From contig CANLOE010000026.1 of the NCBI GenBank assembly GCA_947492745.1, positions 1 to 64,000 on the forward strand: 64,000 nt of DNA, in the 5' to 3' direction. The notes beneath the pieces are model-generated. The model ran no database searches and had not been told where the DNA came from. It saw only the letters and a program-made list of their open reading frames with translations. Every line of letters starts with the position of its first letter. Position 1 is the stretch's first letter. This document shows, piece by piece, positions 10,353 through 64,000 of this stretch. The DNA comes from an uncultured Cyclobacteriaceae bacterium (GTDB lineage: Bacteria; Bacteroidota; Bacteroidia; Cytophagales; Cyclobacteriaceae). Made by a program: the position numbers and the translations under genes.

Positions 10353-10961
10353 GTCTCATGCACAAAAGGTTCAAAACACCCTTGTCGATAGCATGAGGTG
10401 AAATAACCGATACCTAATCTATGTACTCCCGCTCTTAAAGTAACAATGCTACCAATACTCCATAGAAGTTTCCTGCCGTAGATGGAGCTAAAATAATAAA
10501 TAAATGATAACCCTAAGGATTATTAGGGAGGAGAATGCAACTGAACAGCGGTCTGTACTTTATCGGGTTTTATAAATGGAATAGTTAGGACGGATGGGAT
10601 TTATGAAGTGTACAAACATATCGATAAACTAATGAGAATACTGACTGGAATCATGCAAGAACCACAAAATATGACAAGAGTATTTCCGTCTGAGTACAGA
10701 ACGGTTCAAAATTTTCTATGTCCAAAGGCCGGACCCTTGTAAGGGAAGTCTCCTGCCGGCTTTACGTTAATACCGACTCAATAGAGAGTACTGATCGCAT
10801 GGTATATTTATGAAATACCATAGCGTAAACGATGGCCGCAAATGGGGCAATCTTGGAGGAAAGCCCATATATTTGAAGGAGTTTTATAAATGGACACTTG
10901 GTATCGCCCCTATAATATAAACAAACATCGATAATCGATTTTTTTTGACCTATTTGGAAGC
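10353..10961. other. Long leader region before the polysaccharide locus
   Basis: No gene was found in 609 bases. A G/C hairpin lies at about 10723-10762: GCCGG pairs with CCGGC around an inner CCCTTGTAAGGG, followed by TTTA, which could be an attenuator or weak terminator. An AT-rich TATAATATAAAC stretch near 10913 and an AATCGATTTTTTTT run near 10934 lie just upstream of kdsC. The size suggests a regulated leader for the 30-kb locus, which is inference. Confidence 0.35.
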
Positions 10962-57611: not shown

Positions 57612-58456
57612 CTCATGTATGTTTATTTAAGTAACAATTTAAACGATGAAAATATCAGGGCGAATCAAGAAAATGGAAAAATAGCACACATGTATTTATA
57701 CGTTATAATAATACTGGTACAGAGAAAAAAAGTATACTGACTGAAATCAAACTTTTTAAGATCACTTCGATAACTTGAAAAATTACCGATACCTTGACAG
57801 AGAATCTTAAGGTAGGTGTCCATTGTTGTTTATCCTCCATACAGTACAGAAACTTCCGGAAAATTGTGTTGAATTCATGTAAGCGTACGAGATTTACAGT
57901 CCATGACGAGATACATGTATTTACTGATTTGCGATTTATACTCAAGAAAAAGTAAAATGGGAAATTCGTGATTCAACAAACTATGGAAAAATCCTGCTTT
58001 GGTACAATTTCATTCGTTGATTGGTCATTCGGGCCGTTTTGGACGGAATAGTGTTTTCGAAATCATTTTCATTTTGATATATAAAGACAGGATATATGAC
58101 CTCTACTTCAGGATAATCGATACCCCCAAAGATAAAAATGGCTTTAGAACAGGGTATGTTGTAGGTACGGAATGATTTCTTTAGGTGCATGGGTAGCCTA
58201 GGAGATAGTCATCACTTTAAGATACTGGCTGAAAAGCTAGAGCGATAAAATATTGGCCGATAAACATTGAATGGTATTTGTCGTTTTCAGGTCACCGATT
58301 ACACGAATTTATCTTATGTTCGGAGCACTTATGCTCAGTCATTGATTAGATTCGTGAAATAATGGAGTAGCTTATTGTGTAATTCAATAAAATCATACAT
58401 TTGTATAAATGAAAATAGTATTATGATAACCTATAGCTAAGAGGCTGTTGACAAAA
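57612..58456. other. Gene-free stretch between divergent regulators
   Basis: No accepted gene. A 69-codon minus-strand frame (57981-58190, FGGIDYPEVEVIYPVF) has gene-like composition but no recognised homology or start context and is left uncalled. The promoters for both neighbours should be here but no clear boxes were identified. Confidence 0.35.
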
Positions 58457-61420
58457 ATGATAGGTAAGGCAGTAGCTGGTATATTTTTCATGATTTTACT
58501 GTGGCAAGTCGTACCGTACTCCAAGGCACAGGACATAACGACTTTTATCAATTACACTACGGATGATGGACTGCCCAGTTCTGAAGTGTACCGTTCCTTT
58601 CAGGACAGCCACGGTTTCATGTGGTTTGCTACCGATAGGGGAGTGGTCCGCTTTGATGGTTATGAATTTACCGTATTCAACTCGGACGATGGTCTGCCCG
58701 ACGATGTGATATTCGAAATCAAAGAAGATGACGAAGGGAGGATATGGTTTGCTTCTTTCTCCTTCAGTTTGGCCTATTTTGATCCCAGGTTAAGGAAAAT
58801 CGTCAAATACCCCTATAATGATACCATTCTCAAGGCCAAACAATCGAAATACATCAGATCTATCGATATGGACAAACAGGGAAATGTGTATATCGGACTC
58901 TACAGTGATGGTATGATGGTCATCGATAAAAACGGGAAGTTATCCAGCAAAAAAAATAGCGAATACAATGAGTTTGTTCTTTGGTATGCAGATAGTTGCG
59001 AATTGACCTACTCGATGACCAATGCTTCCGGAGCGAGCCGTTTAAGGATTATCCAACAGCAAGATGGAGAAATCTTCGAGAAGCATTTCGACATACAGCT
59101 TACCAAGGCCTTCCATGCCCCCTATTCCATTCTTCAACACGATAGTATCTATGTACTGGCACTTTCCTATGAAATTATCTTGCTGATGGAAGAGGTTCGA
59201 AGCCAGATTATTTTTGAGGATAAGATAATCTGGGCCAGTTTTCACGATGGAAACCTATGGGTGGGTTTCCATCAAAAAGGTGTCAAGGTATATGCTTTGG
59301 AAGAAGATTTGACACTGACACCAAAAGGACACTATCTGATGGACAAATCCATATCGTCGGTATTCAAGGGCAAGGCCGGAGGCTACTGGCTAACCAGTAT
59401 CGAAGAGGGTGTCTTCTACTTTCCCAATCCCAAAATAGCCCTACATAATGCTCGTAACGGACTTTCCGATGATCAAATCTATAGTATCAATGGTGATGGT
59501 AAGGGAACGGTCGCTTTAGGATTACTTAATGGAGAAATAGCATTACATGCCAAAGGTCACTTGAAGACCCTGCCAAGCCCTGGTCAACATGGTGCACGCA
59601 GTATTAACTATGATTCTATAGACGACGAATTTATAGTCGACCATTGGAACGCCCTGACACATTTATCTCCTAAAGGATATCATCAAAAAGTGGAAAATTA
59701 CCCCTTGGCCCGTACATATCAGCAAAGCGGAATCGGTGATAAGGTTTTTGCGGCTATAGAACCAAACCGAGATCTTACCCATATCGGTTATCTACGAAAT
59801 AGTAAATTCTATTATTTGGCCCAGCTATATAAGAAAGATAATACTTCCTTGCGAAAAATATACCAAGATAGCCACGGTCAGCTATGGGTTATTGGTCTTC
59901 GCGGTCTGTGGAAGTATGATGCAGCAAAAAAGACTTTTATCAACCAGAAGTATATCGATGATCTATTGGACATAAGGATAGAGTCCATCAAAGAATTCGA
60001 TGAAGGACAGATTATCTTGGGGACAAGAGGGCATGGGGTAATTTTATTGCAACAGGACTCTGTCTTACAGATTGGTAAGGAACAGGGACTCATCGATAAT
60101 AAAGTCAACGATATCTATGTTGATGACAATAATAATATATGGATAGCTACCCTATCCGGCATCAGTAGGATAATGGGAATACGCTATCCCATCATCGATA
60201 ATATCACTTTGAAAAACGGCCTACCTACCAATGAGGTGAACTGTATATATGTCAAAAATGATACCGTATATGCGGGAACAAAACGAGGTCTTGCCGTATT
60301 CAGGGTACAGGATATTATCAAGCCTTCATTAAAAGAGGTCCCTTTGATCGTGAAATCAATAAAGGTCAATGATGAAGACCGTGTTCATAGTGATATGAAC
60401 AATCTGAACTATAAGCAGAACAGGGTGGAGATCTCATTTGCGGCATTGGACTACTCCAGTCGCGGAAAAAATGTGTACAGCTATAGGATGAAAGGCCTCT
60501 CAGATGAGTGGGCCATTACGAACAATACCTCCGTCACCTATCCGTACTTATATCCGGGAGATTATAATTTTGAACTACGTGTCAAAAACATCAATGGTCA
60601 GTGGTCATCTCCTAAAGAATTACTGTCCATAGGTATCAAAGAACCCTTCTGGTACTTATGGTGGTTTTACCTGATAGTTGCCATCTTCATAGCGGCGATT
60701 ATCCTTTACATCTCCAGAAGGATCATACTGATCAACAAAAAGAAAGAAAAGACAAAATATGAAATTGTAGAATGGCGTTTGAAAGCCTTGGCCTCTCAGA
60801 TGGAACCTCATTTTATTTTTAACGCATTAAGTTCAATTCAGAACTATATCATCACCAATGATAAGATGCAAGCCAATAGTTACGTCAGTAGGTTTGCCAA
60901 GTTGATGCGCCTTACATTAGATCATTCTACCCAGTCCTTGATATCACTGGCAGAGGAGATAGAAGTACTCCGGCACTACATGGATATCGAAAGAGTGCGC
61001 TTCGATGGTCGCTTCCGTTATAGAATAGAAATCGACCCCGATATCGATAGGAAACATACCGCCATACCGAATTTCATGGTGCAGCCCTTTATAGAAAATG
61101 CCATATGGCACGGGTTTCCGAAAAGTCATGGAAAAGGCCTCATTACCTTACGGTTTTATGTATGTGACGGATTGTTCTTTGCTATTGTCGAAGATAATGG
61201 AGTAGGGCGTCAGGCAGCGTCCAAATCTCAAAAAACACACAGTTCGAAAGCAACGAATGTCGTTATCCAGCGACTGAGATTATTACAGTCCATCAAAAAA
61301 GCTACGCATGATCTTTCTATCGTTGATATAGAGGATGAAAATAACCAAAACAAAGCCTTAGGAACCAAGGTGATAATAAGATTTCCCTATGAAAAATTTG
61401 AGAGCAGTCATCGTCGATGA
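58457..61420 (+). CDS. Reg_prop/Y_Y_Y sensor histidine kinase, LytS-type
   Basis: A membrane kinase of about 987 residues. From MIGKAVAGIFFMILLWQVVP it has a signal peptide, then propeller repeats (two-component regulator propeller; TDDGLPSSEVYRSFQDSHGF MWFATDRGVVRFDG is one, split here), a Y_Y_Y domain (SYRMKGLSDEWAITNNTSVT, PGDYNFELRVKNINGQW), one transmembrane helix (WYLWWFYLIVAIFIAAIILY) and a LytS-type His_kinase (LASQMEPHFIFNALSSIQNY, then ENAIWHGF and IVEDNGVGRQAA). The extracellular propeller senses a ligand outside the cell. ATG at 58457 was preferred over a TTG 9 bases upstream. It overlaps the LytTR gene by 32 bases. Confidence 0.92.
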   Translation: MIGKAVAGIFFMILLWQVVPYSKAQDITTFINYTTDDGLPSSEVYRSFQDSHGFMWFATDRGVVRFDGYEFTVFNSDDGLPDDVIFEIKEDDEGRIWFASFSFSLAYFDPRLRKIVKYPYNDTILKAKQSKYIRSIDMDKQGNVYIGLYSDGMMVIDKNGKLSSKKNSEYNEFVLWYADSCELTYSMTNASGASRLRIIQQQDGEIFEKHFDIQLTKAFHAPYSILQHDSIYVLALSYEIILLMEEVRSQIIFEDKIIWASFHDGNLWVGFHQKGVKVYALEEDLTLTPKGHYLMDKSISSVFKGKAGGYWLTSIEEGVFYFPNPKIALHNARNGLSDDQIYSINGDGKGTVALGLLNGEIALHAKGHLKTLPSPGQHGARSINYDSIDDEFIVDHWNALTHLSPKGYHQKVENYPLARTYQQSGIGDKVFAAIEPNRDLTHIGYLRNSKFYYLAQLYKKDNTSLRKIYQDSHGQLWVIGLRGLWKYDAAKKTFINQKYIDDLLDIRIESIKEFDEGQIILGTRGHGVILLQQDSVLQIGKEQGLIDNKVNDIYVDDNNNIWIATLSGISRIMGIRYPIIDNITLKNGLPTNEVNCIYVKNDTVYAGTKRGLAVFRVQDIIKPSLKEVPLIVKSIKVNDEDRVHSDMNNLNYKQNRVEISFAALDYSSRGKNVYSYRMKGLSDEWAITNNTSVTYPYLYPGDYNFELRVKNINGQWSSPKELLSIGIKEPFWYLWWFYLIVAIFIAAIILYISRRIILINKKKEKTKYEIVEWRLKALASQMEPHFIFNALSSIQNYIITNDKMQANSYVSRFAKLMRLTLDHSTQSLISLAEEIEVLRHYMDIERVRFDGRFRYRIEIDPDIDRKHTAIPNFMVQPFIENAIWHGFPKSHGKGLITLRFYVCDGLFFAIVEDNGVGRQAASKSQKTHSSKATNVVIQRLRLLQSIKKATHDLSIVDIEDENNQNKALGTKVIIRFPYEKFESSHRR

Positions 61421-62102
61421 TGAAAGTAACAATAGAAACTATTTAAAAGAACTCATTAACGGGCATTGCGAAGGTGTATCTGTTGTGGCCACAGCGGATA
61501 CAGCACTGACCGGAATGAAGAGCATTAAAGAACATCGTCCAGACGTCGTCTTTCTGGACGTGGAAATGCCCGGTGGCTCTGGTTTTGACCTTTTAGAGAA
61601 TATAGATAAAAAGGATTTTCGTATCGTATTCGTAACGGCCTACAGTCAGTACGCCATAAAAGCACTTCGCTCTCAAGCGGTCGATTATCTTTTGAAACCT
61701 GTTGACCTAGAAGAACTACAGAATACACTAAAAGTCATTCGGAAAAATACGGCGACCTCCGTACATGAAGAAATCCCCAAGAAAGTGACTTTCACCCTGT
61801 TGGACAGGATTATCTATCTCGACCCAAAAGAAATAGTCAACATGGAAGGAGACGGTAGCTACTGTACCGTGTACCTTACCGATGGTACTTCGCATATCAT
61901 TTCAAAACACCTGAAAGCTGTAGGGGAGATGTTGCCAAAATCCTGTTTCTTCCGTATCCATAACTCACATATGGTCAATTTGCACTATGTGGAACAATTA
62001 CTAAAACAAGATGGTGATGTGGTGTTGATGACCAACGGTCATCAATTACCACTCTCCCGACGCAAAAAAGAAAATTTTGTAGAGGCTATGACACGTGCGT
62101 GA
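61389..62102 (+). CDS. LytTR-family response regulator
   Basis: A 237-residue regulator: receiver domain with AVIVDDESNNRNYLKELI, DVVFLDVEMPGGSGFDLL (Asp57) and IVFVTAYSQYAIKALRSQAV, and a C-terminal LytTR DNA-binding domain (IIYLDPKEIVNMEGDGSYCT, HIISKHLKAVGEMLPKSCFF, RIHNSHMVNLHYVEQLL, PLSRRKKENFVEAM). It is the partner of the kinase it overlaps. LytTR proteins bind direct repeats upstream of target promoters. The closest downstream gene on the same strand is the lanthipeptide precursor at 62704, a possible target. Confidence 0.95.
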   Translation: MKNLRAVIVDDESNNRNYLKELINGHCEGVSVVATADTALTGMKSIKEHRPDVVFLDVEMPGGSGFDLLENIDKKDFRIVFVTAYSQYAIKALRSQAVDYLLKPVDLEELQNTLKVIRKNTATSVHEEIPKKVTFTLLDRIIYLDPKEIVNMEGDGSYCTVYLTDGTSHIISKHLKAVGEMLPKSCFFRIHNSHMVNLHYVEQLLKQDGDVVLMTNGHQLPLSRRKKENFVEAMTRA

Positions 62103-62703
62103 TTTTATCCTTTAAAATTTAGAGACTGTTTTATGCAAATTTGGGTTTAATGTAAAAAAGCAATTTTCAAAAATGTAATGATATGTAACCTACAGCATAA
62201 TAGGGGTTTGTGAGTTTTTAATCAGGAAGGAAAGCAGAGAAGAAAAACTGGAGCTGACCACTTTTAAATTTGATACTACCAAGTATTTATCTACTTGAAC
62301 CGGTTTTCAACTGTCCAAGTAAACCTTGTCCAAAATCAGTAATCTTGTAATGGAAAAAAAGAATACACAAGTGATTAACTAATGCGCAATCATTGATTAG
62401 AACCTTTCTTCTACTAGAGGGATTTACTGTTCCTTAAGGGTAGGCATCGTTAACTGTACGGTATTGGAAAATAGCAATCGCAGATTCACTTTACCCTAAC
62501 TGAAGATGATTGTACTGTATTGGTTGAAATAGTGATGGTCAATGAATAATGTTCAGTATAATATTTTGATTTTCAGATGTTTATATCTTATGAGGCGTCT
62601 TTCAGGATGAAAAAATGAAAATCCAATAACAACAGAAAGACAGACAGGTCATAAGAACTCGTAATAATAACAATAACAATAAGTTTAATTTAAATCCAAA
62701 AAA
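62103..62703. other. Gene-free region upstream of the lanthipeptide gene
   Basis: 601 bases with no gene. It holds a family E-like end near 62117-62135 (GAGACTGTTTTATGC) and an AT-rich AATAATAACAATAACAATAA stretch just before the precursor ORF. It is the obvious place for the precursor promoter and any LytTR-binding repeats, but none was identified with confidence. Confidence 0.35.
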
Positions 62704-62922
62704 ATGAAAAAAGGTAAAATGAATCTGTCAGAATTAAAGGTAAAGAGTTTCACGACAAGTATTGACGAAACTAAAGAAAACACTGTAAAAGGTGGTGGCA
62801 CAGGTTTGGTGATATGCCTTGAAAGCTTTCAGTGTGGTGGCCAGAGCGAAGATACGGTCTGTAATAGTATACCTCCTGTTTGTATCCAGACAAGAAACAA
62901 TATCAGCTTCTGCTGTGTCTAA
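62704..62922 (+). CDS. Pinensin-like class I lanthipeptide precursor
   Basis: A 72-residue precursor peptide. The leader MKKGKMNLSELKVKSFTTSI carries the LSELKVKSFTT-type motif characteristic of Bacteroidota class I (pinensin-like) lanthipeptides, followed by a glycine cleavage motif TVKGGG (residues 28-32). The core (33-72) has six Cys (38, 44, 53, 60, 70, 71) and seven Ser/Thr, the residues needed for lanthionine rings. Modification enzymes (LanB, LanC, protease-transporter) are not in the window; they may lie downstream. The stop codon TAA is also the left target duplication of the family B element B5. Confidence 0.85.
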   Translation: MKKGKMNLSELKVKSFTTSIDETKENTVKGGGTGLVICLESFQCGGQSEDTVCNSIPPVCIQTRNNISFCCV

Positions 62923-63082
62923 TACAAACTTAGCTTTTAAATATCGCCTATCTTCCTGTTCATTTTGCTTCACTCTGTGTTGACAATCCTCGCGATAGCG
63001 CTGCTATCCCTGCGGTTGTCGCCTTGATTGAAACCAAAATGACCCGCAGAATCTTATACGACATTTGAAACCCAAATTTGTA
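62923..63082 (+). repeat. Family B element B5 at a stop codon
   Basis: 160 bp (TACAAACTTAGC to CAAATTTGTA), flanked by TAA at 62920-62922 and 63083-63085. The left TAA is the stop codon of the lanthipeptide precursor; an empty site would read GTC-TAA-ATAGTGG, so the stop codon was present before insertion. The gene's probable terminator now lies beyond the element. Confidence 0.9.
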
Positions 63083-63101
63083 TAAATAGTGGTTTGATTC
63101 G

Positions 63102-63137
63102 AAGGGACTCTACTTACGTTTTGAGTCCCTTTGATTT
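63102..63137 (+). terminator. Intrinsic terminator of the lanthipeptide gene
   Basis: Stem AAGGGACTC/GAGTCCCTT (63102-63110, 63123-63131) followed by TGATTTTTG. It was most likely directly downstream of the precursor gene before element B5 came between them. Confidence 0.75.
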
Positions 63138-63501
63138 TTGTCAAGTGTTCACCCCCGGTCGTGTCCAAAATGTTGATGAACTGAGGCAAGTCAAATGATT
63201 CGGGTTCAAAGTTGTCCCGAAAATAGGTTGATTTTGCTCAAAAGAAAATGGATAGGGAAATTTGAGAGTCAGAGTCATCATGGTAAAACTATCATTCTAC
63301 ACAAAAGTCTTTGAGATTCATCAATAGATTTTTTTAAGACGGTCATCATATATCCTTGTTCCCGACCAATTACATTGGAATGCCTGTTTTTTTGAACAAT
63401 CACATAGGCTCGGAAATAGAACCTCTTCTTACAGGGCTGGCCTAATTCTTGCACATCCGTCTGGGGGAAGAGAATCACGATAGCAGATGATTAGGTCTTT
63501 A
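63138..63501. other. Gene-free stretch
   Basis: No gene seen. Frames on either strand lack recognisable domains or start contexts. Confidence 0.35.
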
Positions 63502-63670
63502 ACCCAAAATGATCAATAGCCTTCCTGTTCCGAATATAAATTGCTTCAGAATCAGCGGTTTTACACTACTTAGGTTTTACACTTTAGTGATACAAAAGCC
63601 TCCTCTCCTAAACCACTGATTTTAGTATACTTTATGTGCTCATGACGAACTCCTGTTGATCAATTTGGGT
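63502..63670 (-). repeat. Family D element D3
   Basis: 169 bp, ends ACCCAAAATGATCAATAGCC and GTTGATCAATTTGGGT. Flanks are TTA and TCA, both TNA but not identical. It abuts the C element starting at 63674. Confidence 0.75.
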
Positions 63671-63673
63671 TCA

Positions 63674-64000
63674 ACCCGGATTATGCGTTGGAACTTCGTA
63701 ACGAGGGTTTAAACCCAGAATGTTCGTTGGAACTTCGTCATGAGGATTTAAATGGCAATACATCAGGGTGTTTTCTTGGATTCAGCGTAGCACCGCTACG
63801 GTGAATTCAAAAAACGCATTCATTTACTGATTTGAAGCCAGTTAAGTCCGGAATAGATTTTCTAATGGACATTTTGGGTTAAATGTTCATAAATCAGGGA
63901 GTTTTATTGGATTTAGCACAGCACCGCTATGGTGAATTCAAAAAACGTAGTGCAACGACCGGTTTGCAGCTATTTAGATCCGCAGTAGATTTTCCAATGC
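63674..64000 (+). repeat. Family C element, split by A3 and cut by the window end
   Basis: Left arm ACCCGGATTATGCGTTGGAA to GAGGGTT at 63709, then the A3 insertion, then the rest from 63883 (ATGTTCATAAATCAGGG, AGCACCGCTATGGTGAA, CAACGACCGGTTTGC, ATCCGCAGTAGATTTTCC). The right end lies beyond 64000. Copy C1 at 4634 shows the uninterrupted arrangement. Confidence 0.8.
63713..63879 (+). repeat. Family A element A3 inside a C element
   Basis: 167 bp, ends ACCCAGAATGTTCG and GGACATTTTGGGT, flanked by TAA at 63710-63712 and 63880-63882. The host C element continues on both sides; removal of A3 and one TAA gives a sequence close to that of intact C1, so this is a second direct view of an insertion with a 3-bp duplication. 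Confidence 0.92.

Follow-up and report, generated by a model that had tools for sequence, protein, structure and literature searches.

A pinensin-type lanthipeptide precursor behind a kinase-LytTR pair, with candidate maturation enzymes probably shared in trans among dispersed precursors

How would a lanthipeptide precursor that has no modification enzymes beside it be matured, and what would decide when it is made? The question is raised by a small gene near the end of the window, by which we mean the whole stretch of 64,000 nucleotides analysed (positions 1-64000 of contig C26 in the 7.1 Mb, 458-contig draft genome of an uncultured Cyclobacteriaceae bacterium). The explanation that we favour, and hold with considerable confidence, is that this gene encodes a class I pinensin-type precursor, one of about 20 that would share a single enzyme set acting in trans, and that it belongs to a conserved, probably cue-responsive module of sensor kinase, LytTR regulator and precursor. 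The earlier note on this DNA had recognised both the precursor type and a more than accidental link to the regulators, and these stand; it had foreseen neither maturation in trans nor the 20 or so siblings.

The precursor and the regulators in front of it

The NF038180 (leader_pinensin) model is matched by residues 5-31 of the leader with 45.4 bits (E 5.6e-12) against a cut-off of 24, bearing out the pinensin-type leader that had been claimed for the peptide. A self-built leader profile, which contained the peptide's own leader, picked out this ORF alone from the window's 372 small ORFs (E 6.7e-16, the next-best ORF having E 0.1). A GG at the end of the leader is common to nearly all paralogues, and we infer cleavage after it. 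The core that follows TVKGG, GTGLVICLESFQCGGQSEDTVCNSIPPVCIQTRNNISFCCV, reproduces the six Cys and seven Ser/Thr counted earlier, with Cys at core positions 7, 13, 22, 29, 39 and 40; its adjacent Cys pair, previously thought unusual, is ordinary in the family, 11 such pairs having been counted among 108 relatives. Downstream, the terminator-like hairpin has a stem of 12 bp, was equalled in stability by none of 200 shuffles, and ends in agreement with the end coordinate chosen in the earlier note. With a leader above the family cut-off, a GG and then a core of Ser/Thr and Cys, the ORF is confirmed, at the level of sequence, as a pinensin-type lanthipeptide precursor of the NF038180 family.

Table 1. 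Features of the precursor locus in window coordinates, with DUF805b RNA copies at other loci
Feature	Position	Strand	Evidence
Membrane sensor kinase, propeller (Reg_prop) + Y_Y_Y + His_kinase	58448..61420	+	Domain matches
LytTR response regulator	61389..62102	+	Response_reg E 9.5e-26, LytTR E 2.2e-16
Regulator-precursor gap, 601 bp, presumed promoter region	62103..62703	+	
Lanthipeptide precursor ORF, 72 aa, ATG start	62704..62922	+	NF038180 45.4 bits; paralogues in genome
Leader MKKGKMNLSELKVKSFTTSIDETKENTVKGG, C39 cut predicted after GG	62704..62796	+	Model match residues 5-31
Core peptide, 41 residues, 6 Cys, 7 Ser/Thr, C-terminus CCV	62797..62919	+	
Terminator-like hairpin with T-run	63102..63139	+	-21.5 kcal/mol, z -3.98
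DUF805b copies	L207:9256-9298; L208:5625-5666, 10426-10465; L085 (4 copies), L025, L026, L099, others		

The propeller kinase and LytTR regulator reported upstream have the domains claimed for them, and their genes overlap by 32 bp. Proximity alone proves little, since just one of the 11 LytTR genes in the genome adjoins a precursor. The same order of kinase, LytTR regulator and precursor nevertheless recurs in another uncultured Cyclobacteriaceae bacterium (genome G062, locus L207) and in Fulvivirga imtechensis (locus L208), where the best homologues of the regulator are separated from a precursor downstream by 176 bp and 201 bp respectively, as opposed to 601 bp in the window, and follow a propeller kinase similar in length. 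When sought in 390 genomes of the family, the window regulator shows about 40% identity everywhere and a clean orthologue set is absent, so that a tree was needed; in it, the three precursor-linked regulators form one clade among 59 homologues (FastTree support 0.964; SH-aLRT/UFBoot 97.3/94). A tree of the kinase C-terminal regions leaves this clade unresolved (33/28) and places one unlinked kinase inside it.

Regulators of other kinds also occur near precursors, as in genome G013, where a different LytTR gene and a TPR kinase lie upstream of two of them. Of 45 neighbours lying upstream of precursors on the same strand, 7 are response regulators, as are 4 of 95 other neighbours (Fisher p 0.026), a count that leaves out the window regulator and has the two orthologous modules among the seven; set against a background of about 1.6%, which is our own estimate from an assumed gene density, the p value is 7e-6. 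LytTR-type direct repeats were sought in four regulator-precursor gaps and found in one (L089), the gaps of the window, L207 and L208 having none, and no recognisable Bacteroidetes promoter was found in the 601 bp of the window's gap. The canonical Bacteroidetes promoter (TTTG-N-TAnnTTTG) was also tried upstream of 108 precursors and rejected, being without enrichment there. The recurrence of the module and the regulator tree support a link between precursor and regulator that goes beyond proximity, and since the precursor's place behind the sensor-regulator pair is conserved in other bacteria, production of the peptide is probably switched on by an outside signal through the kinase and LytTR regulator.

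In a different reading of the same arrangement, the mature peptide acts as the signal: once exported, it would bind back to the periplasmic propeller of the neighbouring kinase and so autoinduce the module. Peptide pheromones autoinduce in the LytTR systems of Firmicutes, and in Agr and Pln systems the pheromone gene adjoins a histidine kinase and a LytTR regulator, much as the precursor does here; the window kinase differs in being a propeller/LytS-like sensor of Bacteroidetes, and the peptide as its ligand is hypothetical. Precursor, sensor and regulator do form a conserved unit, and near-identical precursors flank the pair in F. imtechensis (from 5684 and 10485 of L208). Against this, kinases are absent beside most precursors, related propeller kinases exist without a precursor (L215), and the three modules have cores unlike each other, so we regard autoinduction as unlikely, if the best of the alternatives to an outside cue acting on a module with shared enzymes.

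An RNA element before many precursors

An unbiased k-mer test of the sequences upstream of 108 precursors returned GAGTAGG, seen 17 times where 0.2 were expected, and CCGAAAA, seen 19 times where 1.4 were expected. The element present there, upstream of many precursors, matches Rfam family RF02914 (DUF805b) above its gathering score. It is an H-type pseudoknot, whose outer pair is GC in 15, UA in 6 and CG in 4 copies; the pseudoknot has a covariation score of 0.457 compared with 0.137 when shuffled, and the first stem also shows compensatory variation. With a purpose-built model, 43 of 47 matches lie 5-21 nt upstream of the start of a pinensin-type precursor, although the 47 are not a tally of independent cases, because they include all 26 copies from which the model was built, mostly from precursor loci, and because several of the Chryseobacterium loci hardly differ from each other. 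The 43 include those in single clusters of Chryseobacterium, Pedobacter and Chitinophaga; of the other four elements, three stand before different GG-leader peptides and one before a secreted subtilase that adjoins a precursor. Because the loci searched earlier had been chosen for precursors or LanB, we scanned 787 kb of F. imtechensis and found three elements, all three at precursor loci; this is a check of specificity and not a random sample, since four of the five contigs were picked as precursor carriers. The searchable literature yielded no tie between DUF805b and lanthipeptide genes.

The window precursor differs from many of its relatives in being without the element, which is absent from 62100-62760 when judged by RF02914 and from the whole window when judged by the purpose-built model; it is likewise absent before a second precursor at C26:64586, just beyond the end of the window. 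In F. imtechensis, the two precursors on either side of the kinase-LytTR pair (L208:5684-5881 and 10485-10694) have near-identical cores, and each has its own DUF805b element. The subtilase gene (L255:747-3806; S8 family, with a Por secretion tail) has the element 5' of its start and is followed, 273 bp further on, by a precursor; its product is possibly a maturation protease; a reading of this 999-residue gene as a kinase was rejected, as Pfam identifies a subtilase with a secretion tail.

Maturation enzymes and dispersed precursors

The remaining 1 kb of the window contains no maturation enzymes, as had been noted, and the rest of contig C26, which ends at 68359, revealed no lan gene either. 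The earlier proposal of a lanthipeptide would have fallen had the genome lacked lan genes altogether; instead, the class I enzymes are present, as one LanC and one LanB on contig C130. The LanB is split, with Lant_dehydr_N and Lant_dehydr_C on separate adjacent ORFs and an HlyD protein adjoining. LanC retains the zinc motifs WCHG and CHG. There are two C39 exporters, on C63 and C36, of which the former scores 1334 bits against the exporter of a lanthipeptide cassette in G013 and the latter only 646; by sequence, the C63 peptidase-transporter is a close relative of lanthipeptide-cassette exporters. Maturation would thus be in trans, the set being on other contigs (C130 and C63), although a draft of 458 contigs could in principle hide a second lan set. 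The C36 exporter (L095, C36:28501-40000) probably belongs to a separate RiPP system, the genes beside it presumably being of the ATP-grasp/SPASM (grasp-with-SPASM) type.

A search for paralogous precursors, which the earlier note had recommended, found 19 places in the genome above the NF038180 cut-off, one of them, on C70, with an internal stop, and about 20 pinensin-leader precursors in total. Three adjoin LanC on C130 and the others are scattered in unrelated neighbourhoods. Between paralogues, leaders have an identity of 0.44-0.48, whereas cores (0.17-0.19) are barely more alike than shuffled cores (0.16-0.17); Cys accounts for 9-12% of core residues and 0.1-0.2% of leader residues. Precursors with this leader occur in 8 of 59 genomes, the host genome included, with at least 109 in G013 and 16 in G021. 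All eight have a LanB above cut-off, and the matches in each look like one gene, the pieces in G053 being split over two contigs. In G013 a cassette of exporter, HlyD, LanB, LanB_C and LanC has no local precursor at all. Elsewhere, NF038180 counts were 14 in Fulvivirga marina, 22 in F. kasyanovii, 32 in F. imtechensis and 42 in an uncultured Cyclobacteriaceae bacterium, and one in each of Pedobacter, Chryseobacterium, Chitinophaga and Aquimarina.

Several observations stand beside this pattern. Outside Bacteroidota, pinensin-leader matches number 65 in Acidobacteriota MO_135.B14 and 10 in Aminicenantes CS4-C025, which suggests either transfer of the dispersed system between phyla or mixed bins. 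In two genomes a GNAT acetyltransferase gene lies 3' of a precursor on the same strand (L022:3742-4266 and L208:6016-6573) and could be a self-protection gene. Finally, positions 63667-63999 hold dispersed repeats, among them GTTGGAACTTCGT, with six copies in the window where 0.06 are expected, and a 69-nt repeat containing GGTGAATTCAAAAAAC that is also found near precursors and lanC elsewhere in the host genome.

The LanC protein belongs to a clade with a C-terminal extension of about 230 residues (L021:931-2901; homologues at L125, L101, L083 and others). For the F. imtechensis extension, structure prediction gave a pLDDT of 91, and Foldseek matched it to NGO1945, TglHI, PqqD, TbiB1-leader complexes and the dehydratase MibB, with modest E-values (best 1.4e-3) and, for PqqD and TbiB1, probabilities up to 1.00 and target TM-scores of about 0.7. 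The Pfam match of the host-genome LanC to PqqD is weak (E 0.14). From the predicted fold, the extension is probably a leader-binding RRE fused to LanC.

We therefore envisage a window precursor without enzymes of its own, one of about 20 dispersed genes relying on one maturation set in trans. The split LanB would activate and eliminate Ser/Thr, the zinc LanC would close the rings and the C39 peptidase-ABC exporter would cut after GG, and the host enzymes would act in this way on all of the 20 or so precursors. The constant leader would act as an address that RRE domains, including the one at the LanC C-terminus, probably recognise, and the core would be left free to vary. Because the enzymes would be common to all, specificity of use must lie in the timing of each precursor's production, and given the conserved kinase-LytTR-precursor module, the window peptide is most likely produced in response to an external cue sensed by the propeller kinase. 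We infer that its gene would be under direct LytTR control and that the peptide would be modified and exported, with whatever biological activity it may have.

Export alone would require less: the peptide could leave after the GG cut without lanthionines, its Cys forming disulfides, and the likeness among leaders would then serve only the C39 exporter. Some family cores are indeed poor in Ser/Thr or without Cys, and DUF805b also stands upstream of GG-leader peptides that are not of pinensin type. We think this improbable, since the pinensin leader model can be told apart from generic GG leaders, LanB is present in each of the precursor-bearing genomes tested, and the window core offers seven Ser/Thr for its six Cys. 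It is more doubtful still that precursor duplication left the ORF behind as a silent copy in decay, as the stop in the C70 paralogue, the unlinked enzymes and the lack of a recognised promoter might suggest, for its frame is intact, its leader is conserved, it has a terminator hairpin of its own and the module is kept between genomes. Accidental adjacency of regulator pair and precursor is already disfavoured, at similarly low odds: the window was chosen for the link and a single LytTR gene of the genome's 11 lies beside a precursor, but two further genomes have the same order and the three regulators group together.

Relation to known systems

The nearest known compounds are the pinensins, class I lanthipeptides of Chitinophaga pinensis, with which the system shares the NF038180 leader family, a split LanB, LanC, and a GG leader with C39 exporter; a Bacteroidetes LxLxKx5L leader, a GG site and a split LanB have been described for the pinensin group (PMC7268733). 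The usual description of pinensin-type genes is of a single cluster that includes the precursors, whereas the window precursor is unlinked, the cores are mutually unrelated and one enzyme set would serve about 20 of them. In that respect the layout resembles the prochlorosins (ProcM/ProcA, class II) of marine picocyanobacteria, where one synthetase faces dispersed precursors with a conserved GG leader and hypervariable core, occurring as singletons and tandems with up to 83 per genome (PMC10783134). A single modification set, dispersed precursors, constant leader and variable core are all found here. The system is prochlorosin-like without being a member, because leader family and enzymes differ: prochlorosins proper have a Nif11-type leader and LanM, while this system has a pinensin-type leader, LanB and LanC. 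It also occurs in other phyla, reaches at least 109 precursors in one relative, and links its precursors to two-component genes and to an RNA in cis. From sequence comparison, we read it as the class I equivalent of the layout seen in prochlorosins. No class I one-to-many lanthipeptide system was found in the literature searched, mostly without subscription papers, which is weak evidence of novelty.

More broadly, we lean towards the view that several Bacteroidota, and by count alone one Acidobacteriota and one Aminicenantes genome, run a class I library in which tens to more than 100 cue-specific precursors, under local regulators or DUF805b, would feed one LanB/LanC-RRE factory. Such dispersed precursors are easily missed because lanthipeptide searches look beside the enzymes: antiSMASH reported two RiPP clusters for Fulvivirga kasyanovii (PMC12565237), against the 22 precursors that the leader model alone finds in the type strain. 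The tie to DUF805b and the RRE-like domain of LanC may matter more than the peptide itself. If the tie is true, an orphan RNA gains a gene class, secreted GG-leader peptides, and with the precursor genes a concrete biological setting. The conserved kinase-LytTR-precursor module makes control of individual precursors directly testable, and a class I one-to-many system would be a second natural promiscuous lanthionine factory beside ProcM.
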